Shown here: one piece after another, positions 264 to 6,202 of the stretch | How positions within the stretch are numbered: position 1 is the first letter of the stretch | How the letters are laid out: every line of letters begins with the position of its first letter | IMG/VR virus record: IMGVR_UViG_3300048033_000662 | Span: 1-20,629 of that record | DNA from: a virus | Reading direction: 5' to 3' (one strand) | Length of the DNA stretch: 20,629 nucleotides | The notes under the pieces: model-generated | The model's database searches: none | What the model saw: only the letters and a program-made list of their open reading frames with translations | What the model was told of the DNA's origin: nothing | Made by a program: the position numbers and the translations under genes

Positions 264-740
264 CTATTCACGATTTTTCGCATATAAGATATACTGAACT
301 GACGGGTTATATATCTATTTCACATGCACGGGTCGCGTCAGGAAACGACTTTATTTGACCCACCCCCCTACCGATTATATATGATGCCGTCAAACTTTTG
401 GTGTTTGCCCCGAGGGGGTGCCCTGCAGCTGGTGACTATATACTAATAGATGCCGCGGCCGCGTTTCACGATTTTACGTTGCATGCTCAGACACGCAGCA
501 AAGGAATAATCCCCCTACACATATTGATACCTATAAACGCTACCAGTTAAATTGTTACCTAGGGCAAAAATCGCCCTTGAGCCCAGTGCTGACGCGGGAT
601 TGCTACTCACTTTTTGATATCATCCAACATTGCAGAAAAAAATTTACCTCTCGGAGGCCGCATAAACACTGGGATTTTAAAAAAAGTTTGCATTTTTATC
701 AAAAAAAATTAGGATATATCAACAATGTTTCGCAATCTTT
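264..740. other. Noncoding stretch without a recognised gene
   Basis: I see no convincing coding frame here. It contains a GC-rich patch at about 452-462, a CCCC/GGGG mini-hairpin near 407-416, a hairpin AGGGC/GCCCT (561-565 with 573-577), and A/T-rich tracts at about 673-710 suited to a promoter region. The sequence ATAAACACTGGG at about 662-673 recurs at 6239-6250 beside the right inverted-repeat arm. The early operon promoter probably lies here, but no clean -33/-7 pair was identified. Confidence 0.5.
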
Positions 741-993
741 GTAATGCAGCAGAGCTAAACTGCTAGACCAAAACGGGCACGTCACTTCCCTACTAGTGAA
801 TAGCGAGACCACGGCGAAATAGTGGCGGAGGTTTAGCCAACCATAAAGGCAGGCTGAGTAGGGCAGTCAGCGAGAGCCAACCCTACCGAGAAACTCAAAT
901 AGAGCGGTATCGAGATACGAGCGGGTTTAAAAACCTTAGCTCGGGGTCTTCAGTGTGTGAGCACTGGGCTAGGGAGAACAGGATGTCTTAACC
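741..993 (+). ncRNA. Candidate structured leader RNA, unknown class
   Basis: This gene-free stretch is GC-richer than its surroundings and dense in complementary segments. Seen helices are AGCAG/CUGCU (748-752/760-764), UCACU/AGUGA (782-786/795-799), CCAC/GUGG (809-812/822-825), GUAGGG/CCCUAC (858-863/881-886), GAGC/GCUC (919-922/939-942) enclosing GGUUU/AAACC, CAGUG/CACUG (951-955/962-966), and a crossing pair GCUAAAC/GUUUAGC (754-760/831-837). It ends in GUC then UUAACCAUAA (985-997), the junction and leader found at all five hammerheads, yet no CUGANGA core is present. It may be a different self-cleaving RNA, a decayed ribozyme or a cis-regulatory leader. It matches no RNA family I know. 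Confidence 0.55.
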
Positions 994-1008
994 ATAAAAA
1001 TTATCGAT

Positions 1009-1263
1009 ATGAACTATGTAAAATTAATGAACAGCGGCACGTATGAACTAGGCAAGATGGTCAATCATTACGGGCAAACGATACATTTCTACGAGCACCC
1101 TACACTGGGTGAAGATGCTCCAGTCATCGCGGTATGCCATGACCTAGAGATAGCATCGAGCACGGACTTCCATGACGTTGACGACATGATGAGTCCAGAG
1201 AGCACAGAATACTACCCAGTATTCAAAGACATGCACCTTTACTACGGGCATGAACTAGGTTAA
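1009..1263 (+). CDS. Hypothetical small early protein (84 aa)
   Basis: This is the first gene of the accessory operon. The protein is acidic and rich in His, Tyr and Asp; no known domain is recognised. The ATG lies 21 nt after the GUC/UUAACC junction of the structured leader, in the UUAACCAUAAAAAU leader context shared with later genes. The last two codons, GGT TAA, are the 5' strand of stem I of the first hammerhead, so the C-terminal Gly and the stop are encoded by the ribozyme. A ribosome terminating here would keep that ribozyme from folding. Confidence 0.75.
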   Translation: MNYVKLMNSGTYELGKMVNHYGQTIHFYEHPTLGEDAPVIAVCHDLEIASSTDFHDVDDMMSPESTEYYPVFKDMHLYYGHELG

Positions 1264-1309
1264 CTGATGAGTCTTCAATAGACGAAACGTCCTACGGGAC
1301 GTCTTAACC
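1258..1309 (+). ncRNA. Type I hammerhead ribozyme 1
   Basis: Stem I is GGUUAA/UUAACC (1258-1263/1304-1309), open-ended, hence type I. The core CUGAUGA is 1264-1270. Stem II is GUCU/AGAC (1271-1274/1280-1283) with loop UCAAU, followed by GAAA (1284-1287). Stem III is CGUCC/GGACG (1288-1292/1297-1301) with a UACG tetraloop, followed by UC. All invariant core residues are present, and cleavage is predicted between C1303 and U1304. The 61 nt at 1253-1313 are identical to 1621-1681. The upstream stop codon lies in stem I. The product would be a 5'-OH mRNA with a 22-nt leader for the gene at 1326. Confidence 0.95.
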
Positions 1310-1325
1310 ATAAAAATCTACTAAA

Positions 1326-1631
1326 ATGGCACATTACACTGAGTACTACGGACAGGACGAACTTGAACACCTAACACCATCTGCACTGGCAGCGTTTGAG
1401 AAGCTACACGAACTGGGTGCACCTGTCAAGATATGGCATCAAACGAAACCTGAGTACCAAGGCTACAGAGGATACTTTTGGCTAGACTCTGAGGAGGATG
1501 CAACTGGGGAGTGGCTTGAGTACTACAGCAACTTTTGGGGAAGCGAGAAACTGAACAAAATCCTGAAGGATAGCGGGCTGTACTTCGAATGGGATAATGC
1601 AGGGTATGCTTCGGTATACAAACTAGGTTAA
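1326..1631 (+). CDS. Hypothetical small early protein (101 aa)
   Basis: The protein is acidic and very aromatic, with a Trp/Tyr-rich second half (for example FWLDSEEDATGEWLEYY). No family is recognised. The ATG is 22 nt downstream of the predicted cleavage site of hammerhead 1. The gene ends in CTA GGT TAA, so like the preceding gene its last Gly and stop codon form the 5' strand of a hammerhead stem I. The two proteins share only the final Leu-Gly, which comes from the duplicated ribozyme sequence and not from homology. Confidence 0.75.
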   Translation: MAHYTEYYGQDELEHLTPSALAAFEKLHELGAPVKIWHQTKPEYQGYRGYFWLDSEEDATGEWLEYYSNFWGSEKLNKILKDSGLYFEWDNAGYASVYKLG

Positions 1632-1677
1632 CTGATGAGTCTTCAATAGACGAAACGTCCTACGGGACGTCTTAACC
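1626..1677 (+). ncRNA. Type I hammerhead ribozyme 2
   Basis: Sequence and fold are identical to ribozyme 1: stem I 1626-1631/1672-1677, CUGAUGA 1632-1638, stem II 1639-1642/1648-1651, GAAA 1652-1655, stem III 1656-1660/1665-1669 with UACG loop. The predicted cut is between C1671 and U1672. The identity extends over 1621-1681, suggesting recent duplication or conversion. It would release the gene at 1692 with a 20-nt leader. Confidence 0.95.
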
Positions 1678-1691
1678 ATAATCTAATTACC

Positions 1692-1880
1692 ATGAATCCA
1701 CTTAACGACACATCTTTTTATTATGCAAAAAAATTCGCTGAAGCATACAAAGCAGGTGAGAAGGTAGACCTTTCAGAGTCTAACCTAGAGAAGATTATAC
1801 CTGAGAAAGACCAAGAAAATATACTATACAACATCTTCGAGTTTTGGGCAGCGTTTGAGTACTATGCCGAGATTGAGTAA
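1692..1880 (+). CDS. Hypothetical small early protein (62 aa)
   Basis: A short, mostly helical-looking acidic protein with no recognised domain. The ATG follows CTAATTACC, an A/T-rich start context used repeatedly in this region (1950, 2972), and lies 20 nt after the cleavage site of hammerhead 2. Its TAA stop ends 2 nt before stem I of hammerhead 3, so this is the only gene of the set whose stop lies just outside the ribozyme. Confidence 0.7.
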   Translation: MNPLNDTSFYYAKKFAEAYKAGEKVDLSESNLEKIIPEKDQENILYNIFEFWAAFEYYAEIE

Positions 1881-1882
1881 CA

Positions 1883-1934
1883 GGTTAACTGATGAGGCTT
1901 TAGTAGCCGAAACGCCCTTCGGGGCGTCTTAACC
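1883..1934 (+). ncRNA. Type I hammerhead ribozyme 3
   Basis: Stem I is GGUUAA/UUAACC (1883-1888/1929-1934) and the core CUGAUGA is 1889-1895. Stem II is GGCU/AGCC (1896-1899/1905-1908) with loop UUAGU, then GAAA 1909-1912. Stem III is CGCCC/GGGCG (1913-1917/1922-1926) with a UUCG tetraloop. The predicted cut is between C1928 and U1929. Compared with ribozymes 1 and 2, pair 2 of stem II changes U-A to G-C and pair 3 of stem III changes U-A to C-G: compensatory changes that support both helices. Confidence 0.95.
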
Positions 1935-1949
1935 ATAATCTTAATTACA

Positions 1950-2189
1950 ATGAGAAATTTAGAAACGATTGTCAAGGATTTAAGAAGAATACGAGACGAG
2001 TACGACGAGTACGGGTATGGAGACATCCATGACCAAATACACTACCAACTGGAGGGTATATTTGACGACTACGATGAGGCTGAGCAGGACGAGGCTTTGA
2101 TAAGAAACCTCAACGTACTGGTAGAACAACTGGAGGCTCACCTGTACTACATTACCAATCTTCCTGAATTTAATTGGATATACGGATGA
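1950..2189 (+). CDS. Hypothetical acidic helical protein (79 aa)
   Basis: The protein is rich in Asp, Glu and Tyr (for example EYDEYGYGDIHDQ) and looks helical throughout; no family is recognised. The ATG follows TTAATTACA and lies 21 nt after the predicted cut of hammerhead 3. The stop overlaps the ATG of the next gene as ATGA (2186-2189). With the next two genes it forms a three-gene translationally coupled unit between hammerheads 3 and 4. Confidence 0.7.
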   Translation: MRNLETIVKDLRRIRDEYDEYGYGDIHDQIHYQLEGIFDDYDEAEQDEALIRNLNVLVEQLEAHLYYITNLPEFNWIYG

Positions 2190-2359
2190 GAGAGTCAGGA
2201 GTAGTAACGCTTGGCAGCGGGATTGTTGTCGAGCGTCGCCTTCGAAAAGGAAGGCTAGTAATCAAGTCCTACACACAGGAAGAGTGGGACGCAAAGCAGA
2301 GAAGTATAATCACTAAAATTCGATCGATATGCCAAAGAATCTTACCTACGACGAGATAA
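2186..2359 (+). CDS. Hypothetical basic small protein (57 aa)
   Basis: The start is placed at the ATG sharing ATGA with the preceding stop; an in-frame TTG at 2174 is less likely. The protein is basic, unlike its acidic neighbours, with repeated Arg/Lys in VVERRLRKGRLVIKSY and a basic C-terminus, so nucleic-acid or partner binding is possible but unproven. Its 3' end overlaps the next gene by 31 nt, long for this window, so the last residues are less certain. Confidence 0.55.
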   Translation: MRESGVVTLGSGIVVERRLRKGRLVIKSYTQEEWDAKQRSIITKIRSICQRILPTTR

Positions 2360-2514
2360 TCTACAAGGTTATCACGTCACTACACGAGCTAAAGTCTTAC
2401 ACCAAAACACATGAGCCTACACAAACTGAGAAGGTAGACCTAGTCATCAACGATGTGATGGATGTAGACTACTTCATGGCCTATGGCCGCGAGAGGTTAA
2501 CTGACGAGTCTTAA
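2329..2514 (+). CDS. Hypothetical protein (61 aa) overlapping a ribozyme core
   Basis: Small acidic protein of unknown function. The ATG is preceded by TTCGATCGAT, much like the gene starting at 2578, which supports this start. The final codons GAG AGG TTA ACT GAC GAG TCT TAA run through stem I, the catalytic core and the 5' strand of stem II of hammerhead 4, with the stop in the stem II loop. The C-terminal residues Arg-Leu-Thr-Asp-Glu-Ser are therefore dictated by the ribozyme, so one stretch of DNA is under protein and RNA constraint together. Confidence 0.7.
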   Translation: MPKNLTYDEIIYKVITSLHELKSYTKTHEPTQTEKVDLVINDVMDVDYFMAYGRERLTDES

Positions 2515-2563
2515 GTAGACGAAACAGGGTCGAGGGTACTGAGTCCCTCACCTTGTCTTAACC
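2495..2563 (+). ncRNA. Type I hammerhead ribozyme 4, long stem III
   Basis: Stem I is GGUUAA/UUAACC (2495-2500/2558-2563). The core is CUGACGA (2501-2507), differing from the others only at the freely variable position 7. Stem II is GUCU/AGAC (2508-2511/2517-2520) with loop UAAGU, then GAAA 2521-2524. Stem III is long: 2525-2530 pairs with 2550-2555, then after a bulged C2531, GAGGG/CCCUC (2532-2536/2545-2549), capped by 8 nt. The predicted cut is between C2557 and U2558. The upstream reading frame crosses the core. The product leader for the gene at 2578 is 20 nt. Confidence 0.93.
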
Positions 2564-2577
2564 ATAAAATTATTGAT

Positions 2578-2913
2578 ATGATAGATTTTTCAAAGATAGA
2601 CCTAGGTACTATCGAGCCAACAAAGACAGACGTTCTATACAAGTCTGTGGAGGTGACCACCAAAGGAACCTGTATGTACGGTGAACTTGACTACTACGCC
2701 ACAGGTGTACACTACACAACGGCTAGCGGCAACCAACTTTGGGACAAGATATTTGTACACATGCTTCACAAGAACATGGCCATGAGTTGGGAGTTTGAGC
2801 TAAGAAGAGACTACTCTAACAAGATACCTGCTGACAAGATGGAGCTATACGCTTTTGCTGCAGGGCTACTGGACAAGGTACTGACTAATCACAAAGAAGA
2901 ACAGGTTAACTGA
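2578..2913 (+). CDS. Hypothetical early protein (111 aa)
   Basis: Unrecognised protein of mixed composition, with a Tyr-rich middle and a helical C-terminal half. The ATG lies 20 nt after the predicted cut of hammerhead 4 in the leader UUAACCAUAAAAUUAUUGAU, nearly the same as the leader of the gene at 1009. The last codons CAG GTT AAC TGA run into hammerhead 5: GTTAA is stem I and the TGA stop is part of the invariant CUGAUGA core. Confidence 0.75.
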   Translation: MIDFSKIDLGTIEPTKTDVLYKSVEVTTKGTCMYGELDYYATGVHYTTASGNQLWDKIFVHMLHKNMAMSWEFELRRDYSNKIPADKMELYAFAAGLLDKVLTNHKEEQVN

Positions 2914-2955
2914 TGAGACTTCAATAGTCGAAACGTCCTTCGGGACGTCTTAACC
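2904..2955 (+). ncRNA. Type I hammerhead ribozyme 5
   Basis: Stem I is GGUUAA/UUAACC (2904-2909/2950-2955) and CUGAUGA is 2910-2916. Stem II is GACU/AGUC (2917-2920/2926-2929) with loop UCAAU, then GAAA 2930-2933. Stem III is CGUCC/GGACG (2934-2938/2943-2947) with a UUCG tetraloop. The predicted cut is between C2949 and U2950. Pair 2 of stem II is A-U here, a third compensated state after U-A and G-C. The TGA stop of the upstream gene (2911-2913) is part of the catalytic core. Confidence 0.95.
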
Positions 2956-2971
2956 ATTAATTCTAATTACT

Positions 2972-3247
2972 ATGTCAAATTTATCAAGCGATTGCTGTGG
3001 TGCATCACCATGGCTCGGCAACGAGGATTTAGGACGCTGCTCTAGCTGCAAAGAATGCTGTGAGTTTGTGTCTGACGATGAGGTGACCTCTCAGGAGCAG
3101 TCACTTAGACAACTTGCAAGTCTGTTATGGATTACCTGCAAGGTTAAAGAGTTTGGACTAGCAGGTGCTAGACGTAAGATGCTACAGCGTGGACTGGCTG
3201 CACATGAGATTCAATTTGTCACTAACCAATTACTTAAATTCCAATGA
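2972..3247 (+). CDS. Small zinc-ribbon protein (91 aa)
   Basis: The N-terminal 32 residues carry paired cysteines (C8-C9, C23, C26, with C29-C30) in a DCCGAS...GRCSSCKECC arrangement typical of small phage zinc-ribbon proteins; a bound zinc is inferred. The C-terminal 50 residues look helical. It is the last gene directly downstream of a hammerhead, with a 22-nt leader and the CTAATTACT start context. The stop overlaps the next ATG (3244-3247), so the downstream genes are coupled conventionally and carry no further ribozymes. Confidence 0.7.
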   Translation: MSNLSSDCCGASPWLGNEDLGRCSSCKECCEFVSDDEVTSQEQSLRQLASLLWITCKVKEFGLAGARRKMLQRGLAAHEIQFVTNQLLKFQ

Positions 3248-3513
3248 AAAGATTAACCACCAAGCAGGCTGAGGCTTACATCGTAAAGAACTACGGCCGT
3301 GCAAGACACAATGTAGAATACCTTGTAGAGGCCTGTAAGAGAACAGCCAAGGAGTACGGGGTGAATTCACTTGACCTATTCTTTCTACTTATTGAGAACA
3401 GAGAGATGACAGGCACCCACAGCTACGGGTTCCATACAGGCTACGGCCGTGAGTTAATAGAGACCATGCAGTCTCATTATCATCAACTAGAACAAGACCA
3501 AATATTCATATAA
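3244..3513 (+). CDS. Hypothetical early protein (89 aa)
   Basis: No recognised family. The N-terminal half is basic and helical and the middle contains the Gly/Tyr-rich HSYGFHTGYGRE. The ATG overlaps the zinc-ribbon stop as ATGA, indicating translational coupling. The next gene starts 3 nt after its stop. Confidence 0.65.
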   Translation: MKRLTTKQAEAYIVKNYGRARHNVEYLVEACKRTAKEYGVNSLDLFFLLIENREMTGTHSYGFHTGYGRELIETMQSHYHQLEQDQIFI

Positions 3514-3515
3514 CT

Positions 3516-3695
3516 ATGTCAACAATAAGTAAGGACAACATGGTTGTGGTGCAGAAGAAGTTTACTGAACTGGAAATCTGTACCACAATACTAGCACTAG
3601 AGCACCTTATCAAATCTTGTAAAGACGACGAGGTTGTGATAAGAAACTGCGACAAGATGATAACCAAATTGAAATCAACATTATGTACAGAGTAA
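3516..3695 (+). CDS. Hypothetical small protein (59 aa)
   Basis: A 59-residue frame beginning MSTISKDNMV fills the space between the genes at 3244 and 3683. It starts 3 nt after one stop and ends 13 nt inside the next gene, the same packing seen throughout the operon. It looks helical with four Cys residues and no recognisable motif. It is too short for a domain call. Confidence 0.6.
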   Translation: MSTISKDNMVVVQKKFTELEICTTILALEHLIKSCKDDEVVIRNCDKMITKLKSTLCTE

Positions 3696-3961
3696 TTTAC
3701 AATGACAAGGTAGAGTACGAATCGTATGACCTTGAGGACTGCGAAGACTTTATCAACTACGAACTGAAGAAGGACGATGCCTCTATCGAGGAGTTTATAC
3801 GATGCCGTGGATGCCATGAGTGGGAGGGCTACCTTCGTCATGACTGGTACGGAATACCTACTGGTCACTACTGCGATAGCTGTTATGAGAACAACTACCC
3901 ATACCGCAAGGAAAGATATGCAACCGAAGAATACGACGGATATGGCGAGAGGCTCGATTAA
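3683..3961 (+). CDS. Small CxxC-CxxC zinc-binding-like protein (92 aa)
   Basis: Acidic, Tyr-rich protein with two CxxC pairs, C41-C44 (RCRGC) and C64-C67 (YCDSC), separated by about 20 residues with intervening His: a probable zinc-binding treble-clef or ribbon fold. It overlaps the preceding gene by 13 nt and the next by 20 nt. Function is unknown; such small zinc proteins in phage early regions often bind nucleic acids or host proteins, which is inference. Confidence 0.65.
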   Translation: MYRVIYNDKVEYESYDLEDCEDFINYELKKDDASIEEFIRCRGCHEWEGYLRHDWYGIPTGHYCDSCYENNYPYRKERYATEEYDGYGERLD

Positions 3962-4145
3962 CACAGCAGAGAATGACCTTCACAGGATATTTGTGGAGGA
4001 TGTAGATACCCTAAGAAAACTATGGGGAGATTATATGACTAATCCATACAGCACCAAAGACCTACTTGACACGATGGAACACTACGCGGACAAGTGGGCT
4101 GAGGCCTGTACTAAAATGTATTTAGATGAGACAATACAGGAGTAA
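3942..4145 (+). CDS. Hypothetical small protein (67 aa)
   Basis: The start is placed at the ATG at 3942 (MARGSINTAENDLHR); longer versions of this frame only duplicate the region coding the preceding zinc protein in another frame. The product is acidic and helical (HRIFVEDVDTLRKLWGDY). It overlaps its neighbours by 20 nt on each side. No family is recognised. Confidence 0.55.
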   Translation: MARGSINTAENDLHRIFVEDVDTLRKLWGDYMTNPYSTKDLLDTMEHYADKWAEACTKMYLDETIQE

Positions 4146-4248
4146 CCAAGGGAGAGACCCGAGGCGTAATGAGTACAGCTATAAGGCTGTGCTACTTGTC
4201 CTACTAACAGGGCTTGTGCTTTTAACAATTAACACGATAATGCAATGA
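4126..4248 (+). CDS. Tiny single-pass membrane protein (40 aa)
   Basis: The frame encodes a basic, polar N-terminus (MRQYRSNQGRDPRRNEYSYK) followed by one hydrophobic segment, AVLLVLLTGLVLLTI. By the positive-inside rule this would place the N-terminus in the cytoplasm. The 5' end overlaps the previous gene by 20 nt and the TGA overlaps the next ATG as ATGA, both strong packing evidence. Accounting for the otherwise empty 4146-4244 also supports it. A role at the host membrane is possible. Confidence 0.6.
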   Translation: MRQYRSNQGRDPRRNEYSYKAVLLVLLTGLVLLTINTIMQ

Positions 4249-4490
4249 TTAAGTATTCAGACAGAGCCGCAGTAAACTGGAGCGGACTAGACGTAGAGTA
4301 TCACCTTTGTGATGTGGTAGACCTCAAGGTAAAGGATGAGGAAGGACTAAACAAATACCTTCACGAGGTGATGGATGACGTTCTTGAAGTATACGAGGAC
4401 GAGATTATAGAATTCATAAACCACCATGTGTGGATGTATTTAGAAGACCATTTAGTAAAAATTAAAAAAGACATCAATGAGTTTAGATGA
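4245..4490 (+). CDS. Hypothetical acidic protein (81 aa)
   Basis: Strongly acidic, probably helical protein with clusters such as MDDVLEVYEDEIIEF. No recognised domain. The ATG overlaps the previous stop (ATGA), and its 3' end overlaps the next gene by 14 nt. Acidic early phage proteins of this size sometimes act as DNA mimics or inhibitors, but nothing here demonstrates that. Confidence 0.65.
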   Translation: MIKYSDRAAVNWSGLDVEYHLCDVVDLKVKDEEGLNKYLHEVMDDVLEVYEDEIIEFINHHVWMYLEDHLVKIKKDINEFR

Positions 4491-4671
4491 GATTATCGAT
4501 TTAAAGACAAAGAACTTTAACACAGCCATGGAGGTGATAGACCTCAAGGACAAAAGGATTAAGCAACTGGAACAGACTATTGTAGATCTGCGTAAGGAGA
4601 ACAATCGACTTACGATCGAGAACATTAAGTATGAGACACAAAATTATTTACATGAAAGTATTAGAGACTAA
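4477..4671 (+). CDS. Small coiled-coil protein (64 aa)
   Basis: Nearly the whole protein is a predicted coiled coil with heptad-like spacing of Ile/Leu (IDLKDKRIKQLEQTIVDLRK), so it probably oligomerises. It overlaps both neighbours, by 14 nt upstream and 20 nt downstream. The molecular role is unknown. Confidence 0.65.
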   Translation: MSLDEIIDLKTKNFNTAMEVIDLKDKRIKQLEQTIVDLRKENNRLTIENIKYETQNYLHESIRD

Positions 4672-4936
4672 GGTGTATCGGGGTCAGACCCTAGAACACC
4701 GCGAATGGACTACTTGGGACAACAAGACTGCCGATGCATGGCAGTGGAGCACCACAGGTAACCAACGAAAGGAAATGCCTTGGCTACCTGCTAGCTCAGG
4801 CTACAAGACCTTGGATAAGATGCAGTCAGCTATTGACTACTACTTCGATGAGGTAAACATAACCAAGGAGGAACGCAAGTACCTCGCATCTCAGGCTGCT
4901 GCTGCGGCTTGGTCTGAAAAATATGGGGCACACTAA
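4652..4936 (+). CDS. Hypothetical protein (94 aa)
   Basis: The start is chosen at ATG 4652 because it follows AAATTATTTAC, the A/T-rich context also seen before the gene at 5084; an in-frame ATG at 4631 lacks that context. The N-terminal half is Trp-rich (HREWTTWDNKTADAWQW), and the C-terminal half has a helix ending in an Ala run. No family is recognised. The TAA shares one base with the next ATG. Confidence 0.6.
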   Translation: MKVLETKVYRGQTLEHREWTTWDNKTADAWQWSTTGNQRKEMPWLPASSGYKTLDKMQSAIDYYFDEVNITKEERKYLASQAAAAAWSEKYGAH

Positions 4937-5097
4937 TGAGTGCCAATGACTTTCAGTACATCTGCGGTGAGCACGGAATCTTACCGCAGGTGGCCTTGGA
5001 GCATGACTTTGTACGTCAGGTTCTAAGAGAAGACAAAGGAAAAAATAGTATATCAAATCAAATCAAATTATCAACTTATTTACATGAGCAAGTTTAA
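4936..5097 (+). CDS. Hypothetical small protein (53 aa)
   Basis: A 53-codon frame beginning MSANDFQYICGEHG starts on the last base of the preceding stop and overlaps the next gene by 14 nt. It contains a CGEHG motif near residue 10 but too few metal ligands for a zinc finger. It fills what would otherwise be an empty 147-bp gap in a gap-free operon, the main reason to believe it. Confidence 0.5.
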   Translation: MSANDFQYICGEHGILPQVALEHDFVRQVLREDKGKNSISNQIKLSTYLHEQV

Positions 5098-5861: not shown

Positions 5862-6202
5862 AAGAGCTTATCATAGTAGCCTGTGTGACTGCAACGATTT
5901 ATCATGCAGACCCAGCTCAGACAAACGAAGACTATCTTACCACAGCATCATTGCAGACCATAGAAGACCCTTACAAGCCTGAAAGGTGGGTAGCTGTAAG
6001 CAGAGACCTAGAGGCTGAAGGTTTTACTATGGGAGCAAAGATTCTTGTGACAGGTGCAGGTGAGATGGACGGGGTGTGGACGATCGAAGATCGGATGAAC
6101 AAGAGATGGAAAAATCGCATTGACTTCCTAGTATCCAAGAATAAAAAAGGTGGTAAATGGAACAACGTGAGCATCGAATTACTCGAAAATCGACACCAAT
6201 AG
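5858..6202 (+). CDS. 3D/double-psi beta-barrel domain protein (114 aa)
   Basis: The pattern VTATIYHADPAQTNEDYLTT ... RWVAVSRDLEAEGFTMGAKI ... GVWTIEDRMNKRWKNRIDFL matches the 3D domain, a double-psi beta-barrel found in MltA- and RlpA-related wall enzymes and in phage proteins; the family is named for three Asp, and D-rich positions (ED near 77, ID near 88) are visible. The N-terminus is hydrophobic, but the domain begins at about residue 9, leaving little room for a signal peptide. A cell-wall role is inferred. Its last codons lie inside the AATCGACACC box cluster. Confidence 0.65.
   Translation: MKELIIVACVTATIYHADPAQTNEDYLTTASLQTIEDPYKPERWVAVSRDLEAEGFTMGAKILVTGAGEMDGVWTIEDRMNKRWKNRIDFLVSKNKKGGKWNNVSIELLENRHQ

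Follow-up and report, generated by a model that had tools for sequence, protein, structure and literature searches.

The 20.6-kb viral record IMGVR_UViG_3300048033_000662, a viral fragment analysed over its full 20,629 nucleotides (nt) and called the window here, carries five intact type I hammerhead ribozymes on the + strand at 1257–2956. They are 54–71 nt in size and lie within 1.7 kb on one strand of viral DNA, which places them among clustered phage hammerheads. All five share the architecture A-GGUUAA-CUGA(U/C)GA-(stem II)-GAAA-(stem III)-GUC^UUAACC-A, in which the caret marks the predicted cut and stem II has 4 bp and a UNANU loop. The core CUGAUGA or CUGACGA, the GAAA and the GUC before the cut are present in each case, stem I is open-ended, and stems II and III are closed. 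The sequence of stem I is identical throughout, hammerheads 1 and 2 do not differ anywhere in the motif, and there are three different stem III enzyme arms.

When searched with a covariance model derived from 34 hammerheads in other phages and free of its own sequence, the window gave exactly five matches, at 60.2–73.2 bits and E-values of 6e-13 to 3e-16, and revealed no sixth complete hammerhead on either strand. The matches are hammerhead 1 at 1257–1310, counting the flanking A (72.8 bits, E 4e-16; predicted cut C1303^U1304), hammerhead 2 at 1625–1678 (72.8 bits; C1671^U1672), hammerhead 3 at 1882–1935 (73.2 bits; C1928^U1929), hammerhead 4 at 2494–2564, with an extended stem III (60.2 bits; C2557^U2558), and hammerhead 5 at 2903–2956 (72.7 bits; C2949^U2950). 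An initial annotation, made from the letters alone, had described five type I hammerheads with this core and these stems, 5ʹ ends at 1304, 1672, 1929, 2558 and 2950, and pair variation in stems II and III; all of these are present as described. The covariance search that it proposed succeeds with our own model, whereas Rfam 15 recovers none of the five at the gathering score. Of the Rfam families, the RAGATH-1 hammerhead (RF03152), which has the same short stem I, core and stem III hairpin, scores best in the window. Its scores of 28.6 and 26.9 bits do not reach the gathering score of 56.3, and its upstream hairpin is deleted or mispaired in both aligned window cases.

The hammerheads stand at the borders of small early genes on the + strand. 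Early gene 1 (1009–1263; 84 amino acids, phrog_11770, function unknown) ends at the UAA of stem I of hammerhead 1, early gene 2 (1326–1631; 101 amino acids, unknown) stops in stem I of hammerhead 2, and early gene 3 (1692–1880; 62 amino acids, unknown) stops just 5ʹ of hammerhead 3. Three small open reading frames occupy 1950–2514, and the last of them (2329–2514) stops inside loop II of hammerhead 4. The gene between hammerheads 4 and 5 (2578–2913; 111 amino acids, unknown) uses the UGA of the CUGA core of hammerhead 5 as its stop. From predicted cut to next ATG the leaders measure 22 nt (1304–1325; UUAACCAUAAAAAUCUACUAAA, with no Shine-Dalgarno sequence), 20 nt (1672–1691), 21 nt (1929–1949), 20 nt (2558–2577) and 22 nt (2950–2971), in agreement with the 20–22 nt first reported. 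The initial annotation also held that the ribozymes separate successive small genes, but the interval between hammerheads 3 and 4 contains three reading frames instead of one. Furthermore, the operon continues for many genes 3ʹ of hammerhead 5 with no more ribozymes; hence, only its first part is punctuated.

The same ribozyme is found in many other phages. A pattern scan of IMG/VR returned at least 119 stretches, and at least 151 hammerheads in at least 97 loci pass a structural pairing filter, among the IMG/VR matches listed. The same filter passed none in 1.08 million strand-bases of shuffled sequence. Pattern matches in a genome collection were set aside as mostly chance, since a 4-bp stem II was present in only 31 of 126, as against 114 of 134 in viral contigs. 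DNA similar to window positions 700–5000 was not found in isolated phages, and the motif alone gave one chance match there. Rfam recovered no hammerhead at the gathering score in 11 other ribozyme-rich loci. Judged by sequence, these ribozymes are an unannotated subfamily of phage hammerheads with a stem I of exactly 6 bp and a UNANU loop II, widespread in viral contigs and missed at Rfam thresholds. Among the matches listed, the distance from predicted cut to next start codon is mostly 18–27 nt, with a mode of 22, and the preceding gene usually stops at the UAA of stem I (35 cases), at the UGA of the core (27) or at a codon that begins 1–4 nt before stem I (44). The stop lies 5ʹ of the predicted cut in every case called, so that the cut mRNA retains its stop. 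This stop/start geometry is found both in phages with Shine-Dalgarno leaders (L002, L011, L018 and L075) and in those without.

The pairing of all three stems is conserved while their sequence changes. In the alignment of 34 relatives 99.8% of cells are paired, 12 of 15 pairs have changed on both sides, and the covariation score is 0.699, against 0.156 for shuffled sequence and at most 0.109 for slid structures, in a set that had already passed the pairing filter. In leave-one-out tests, where the tested stem was excluded from selection, stem III pair 3 was paired in 127 of 127 (G-C 46, A-U 32, C-G 26, U-A 20, G-U 3). Stem I ended at exactly 6 bp in the same tests, with A.A as pair 7 in 104 of 118, the search pattern having already required UUAA in the 5ʹ strand of this stem. 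Leave-one-out tests took the place of a reverse-complement control for stem I, which was spoiled by G-U pairing.

The junctions themselves recur in divergent phages. We sought homologues of early genes 1 and 2 by protein alone, without use of the ribozyme, and at 33–53% protein identity an intact hammerhead, confirmed with the covariance model, lies no more than 6 nt from the stop codon of the gene at 10 of 17 loci, a few of these contigs being near-identical to each other or to earlier loci. At the 17 loci the hammerhead is either intact or absent. The initial annotation had named mutated cores in close relatives with the genes retained as evidence that would count against the ribozymes; no decayed core was seen.

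What would these ribozymes do? We consider it likely that the five type I hammerheads of the window, members of a compact phage subfamily, act in cis as an array that cuts the early transcript between cistrons. Cis cutting is the expected behaviour of intact hammerheads. The earlier description of one polycistronic mRNA cut into units agrees with the covariation, the placement relative to stops and starts, and the recurring junctions; we infer the cleavage, and its timing, from these sequence features. During early transcription each ribozyme would cut between adjacent cistrons. The upstream mRNA would keep its stop codon and end in the stem II and III hairpins with a 2ʹ,3ʹ-cyclic phosphate, and the downstream mRNA would begin with a 5ʹ-OH and an A/U-rich leader of 20–22 nt, with no Shine-Dalgarno sequence, directly before the ATG. 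The transcript would be resolved into insulated mRNAs, most of them for a single gene, whose 5ʹ leaders are uniform and unstructured. A benefit may lie in 5ʹ-OH ends that are poorly sensed by 5ʹ-monophosphate-dependent nucleases and in 3ʹ ends protected by hairpins. None of the 31 gene starts in the window has a motif resembling a Shine-Dalgarno sequence, and the closest named relatives of the 805-amino-acid primase-helicase are mostly phages of Flavobacteria; the host is therefore likely to be in Bacteroidota, which an A/U-rich leader of this kind would suit.

Several observations weigh against this interpretation. At two of the five junctions the upstream frame enters the catalytic core or loop II ahead of its stop, and ribosomes translating into the core could limit cleavage there. 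Stem I is short, and a tertiary partner is only suggested, by the conservation of both the A.A flank and the UNANU loop. The operon is punctuated only in part. About half of the gene-1 homologues have no ribozyme, and phages L125 and L298, whose primase is 55–57% identical, have none in the regions examined. Since these phages do without them, the ribozymes are optional rather than essential.

A second arrangement emerged from a search for UUAACC leaders with no core. It is found in a clade of 13 contigs (L037, L039/L085/L270, L078, L110, L269, L271–L274, L276 and L278), each of which has exactly one core, at the operon head and 5ʹ of any such site. Most members also have one to five orphan sites, in each of which a hairpin is followed by GGUGUC^UUAACCA, then by a short A/U leader and the ATG. 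The covariance model gives a single match in each tested contig of the clade and none in the truncated L277, the only contig with orphans but no core, which begins 59 nt before its first orphan; the orphans themselves lack a core. An additional match to the orphan pattern, in L280, has no hammerhead context and was taken as chance. The enzyme arms form 11 Watson-Crick pairs with all orphans of the clade. Across 11 clade heads the enzyme shows no change in stems I and III but differs in stem II and in the region upstream; in cis arrays, in contrast, stem III varies freely. The stem III of the enzyme is predicted to be bistable, with two folds of nearly equal energy, one of which frees ACACCG. 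Most clade heads have no gene directly 5ʹ of the enzyme, so that self-cleavage would release mainly a non-coding enzyme RNA. In L269 and L272 a GCCCGAAAGGGC hairpin, the same one that is found ahead of many orphan sites, is inserted into stem II of the enzyme.

These phages would thus have the same module divided into a hammerhead at the operon head and core-less sites before later genes. The orphans would be explained most simply by a single hammerhead that cuts all of them, in trans or over long range on the same RNA. We put forward, at about even odds, the proposal that these are natural trans-cleaving phage hammerheads: the operon-head hammerhead, freed as a non-coding enzyme RNA and exposing ACACCG through its bistable stem III, would cut several half-sites ~20 nt before later starts, and the window would represent a related, cis-dominated form with an orphan at its head.

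A competing account, which we regard as possible but less probable, takes the orphans for ribozymes that have decayed, or for sites cut by an endoribonuclease of phage or host, and not for substrates of a hammerhead in trans. Matching halves would also arise if a ribozyme were duplicated and a copy then lost its 5ʹ half, and in co-folding in silico the arm of stem III pairs but stem I does not; the full two-arm complex of enzyme and orphan was not seen in co-folding. However, decay should leave mismatched copies. The 13-mer stands before start codons in 42 exact copies and in none with one or two mismatches, copies with three mismatches are at the antisense background count, and the upstream hairpins and genes have been exchanged around the invariant 13-mer block. 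The presence of one core per contig, 5ʹ of any orphan in all 13, also argues against this account, as does the match of enzyme arm to orphan: all five positions form Watson-Crick pairs with GGUGU, as they do in only 3 of 146 hammerheads elsewhere. We used Watson-Crick counts because a swapped-arm control that allowed G-U pairs was not discriminating and was dropped; G-U wobbles let common arms, ACGCC among them, pair with GGUGU. A nuclease that recognizes the 13-mer is a real alternative.

A second lineage, represented by L001 and L099, has a different pair of matching parts: an orphan at the head, CCGUGUC^UUAACC, and a hammerhead whose arm is ACACGG. This arm forms six Watson-Crick pairs with the orphan but only three with its own cis partner, followed by a mismatch, and a match at all five positions of CGUGU occurs in 1 of 146 unrelated arms, which again argues against decay or a nuclease. 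Our search found no more phages of this type; hence, the second lineage rests on two contigs.

The window has an orphan of its own, missed by the initial annotation. The downstream half occurs a sixth time, as GAUGUC^UUAACCAUAAAAAU with GUC at 985–987, at the head of the first gene; the full substrate half (978–1008, + strand) reads ACAGGAUGUC^UUAACCAUAAAAAUUAUCGAU before the ATG at 1009. Upstream of 985 the full model with filters off scores no higher than 6.6 bits, the chance level, and Rfam finds no hidden core. The orphan can form six pairs, one of them G-U, with the arm ACGUCC of hammerheads 1, 2 and 5. Trans cutting at this site is possible but weakly supported, since the ACGUCC arms are locked in UNCG-capped hairpins.

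Could the leader be the functional element? Under this explanation UUAACCA(A/U)AA would itself serve as a translation start signal or a protein-binding site, and the ribozymes and half-sites would be secondary. Genes behind ribozymes and behind orphans do have similar leaders, and a similar CAACCAAUAAA leader stands before some genes with no site of either kind. In the split clade, however, the GGUGUC 5ʹ of the cut is as strictly conserved as UUAACCA although it would lie outside the mature leader. The cut would remove it from the downstream mRNA, so that leader function alone cannot explain its conservation, and pairing with the enzyme arm ACACC would do so. Stem I also varies with compensation, and the same ribozyme occurs in phages whose leaders contain a Shine-Dalgarno sequence. 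We therefore consider a leader function of this kind unlikely.

It is also rather improbable that the hammerheads are selfish or neutral repeats, spread as a cassette by recombination at gene borders with no benefit to the phage. The cassettes precede unrelated genes and move between junctions, and hammerheads 1 and 2 share one motif sequence, but the same gene–ribozyme junctions recur at 33–53% protein identity, the distance to the start and the position of the stop are held within narrow limits, and stems change with compensation around cores that remain intact. Lastly, the units might be excised and re-ligated into circular single-gene RNAs, the 5ʹ UUAACC of each pairing with its own 3ʹ GGUUAA, as the identical stem I of the five window ribozymes would permit. 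Ligation is within the hammerhead repertoire, and PMC3088659 raised this possibility. We reject it as a general model and consider it very unlikely here, because successive ribozymes differ in stem I in L002, L009, L066 and L102, leaving cross-pairing unconserved, and because a search for circular or spliced products by Perreault et al. detected none (PMC3088659).

Other features accompany the ribozymes. The non-coding region at the head of the window operon (740–984, + strand; z -1.1) is conserved at 785–835 in another hammerhead phage, L020 (5944–5994; 80% over 51 nt), and also matches L279 near 4092 on the - strand; its blocks CUUCCCUACUAG..CGAGACCAC..GUGGCGGAGGUUUA..ACCAUAA recur among hammerhead phages. 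The region may represent a leader RNA of the early operon. Farther upstream, at 60–260, repeated GAUGUCGA/GUGUCGAUUUU motifs possibly mark a replication or regulator binding region. L020 has two type I copies and, at the operon head (~6076–6136), an apparent type III hammerhead (AAACGUA^CAUGGAU..AUCCAUG-CUGAUGAG-CCACAGAAUGG-CGAAACGUUU) with its cut ~60 nt before the first ATG. In L017, L069, L104, L036, L103, L107, L048 and L111 the stem III loop contains a hairpin and U run resembling an intrinsic terminator, so that only read-through transcripts could complete the ribozyme. The leaders of L068 are 44–45 nt long, rather than the usual 20 nt, and have a conserved extra element (AAAGUCAGGUGCAGACUAUAACAGGCAC) after each cut.

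The insulators of synthetic biology known as RiboJ use a hammerhead to give each gene a defined 5ʹ leader; they are engineered, whereas the phage array is natural and repeated along an operon. A series of hammerheads is less unusual than the initial annotation supposed. The window array is a variant of clustered phage hammerheads and not the first case, since multiple prophage hammerheads that flank single genes or short blocks of genes were published in 2011, together with the proposal that they process transcripts to single-gene mRNAs (Perreault et al. 2011, PMC3088659), and relatives of the window phage have arrays of seven (L293 and L295) and nine (L203) copies. Tandem prophage hammerheads cleave in vitro and in E. 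coli (PMC3088659). The cases tested in that work come from other organisms, Clostridium scindens, Azorhizobium caulinodans and Agrobacterium tumefaciens, hammerheads of types I, II and III are all among the clusters it describes, and the accessible text of the paper gives no fixed stop/start geometry. The window and its relatives have a single type I subfamily with five (up to nine) copies, a 6-bp stem I, leaders of 20–22 nt and a split version in relatives. A hammerhead variant, HHphage, also heads an early operon in the haloviruses HF1 and HF2, with a mapped 5ʹ end no more than 3 nt from the cut (PMC3088659); this is a single variant ribozyme in phages of archaeal hosts, in contrast to an array of five.

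The layout proposed for the split clade resembles that of the discontinuous hammerhead in mammalian Clec2 mRNA (Martick et al. 2008, cited in PMC6155905), in which enzyme and substrate lie apart on one RNA. The Clec2 ribozyme is of type III, with one substrate per enzyme, and lies in a eukaryotic 3ʹ untranslated region, whereas the phage form would have one enzyme and many sites. The reviews consulted describe trans hammerheads as engineered only, and we found no natural multi-substrate hammerhead in the literature searched, in which subscription journals are little covered. If the proposal for the split clade is true, it would be the first natural multi-substrate hammerhead in that literature and an RNA-only system of mRNA processing; if the enzyme does cut the orphans, this would be a new mode of action.

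A 2017 review regarded the function of hammerheads in prokaryotes as an open question (PMC6155905). Their placement in these phages, at gene borders, with the cut falling past the stop codon and ~22 nt short of the next start, offers a direct and testable answer: hammerheads would set the 5ʹ ends of mRNAs, also in phages whose leaders have no Shine-Dalgarno sequence.

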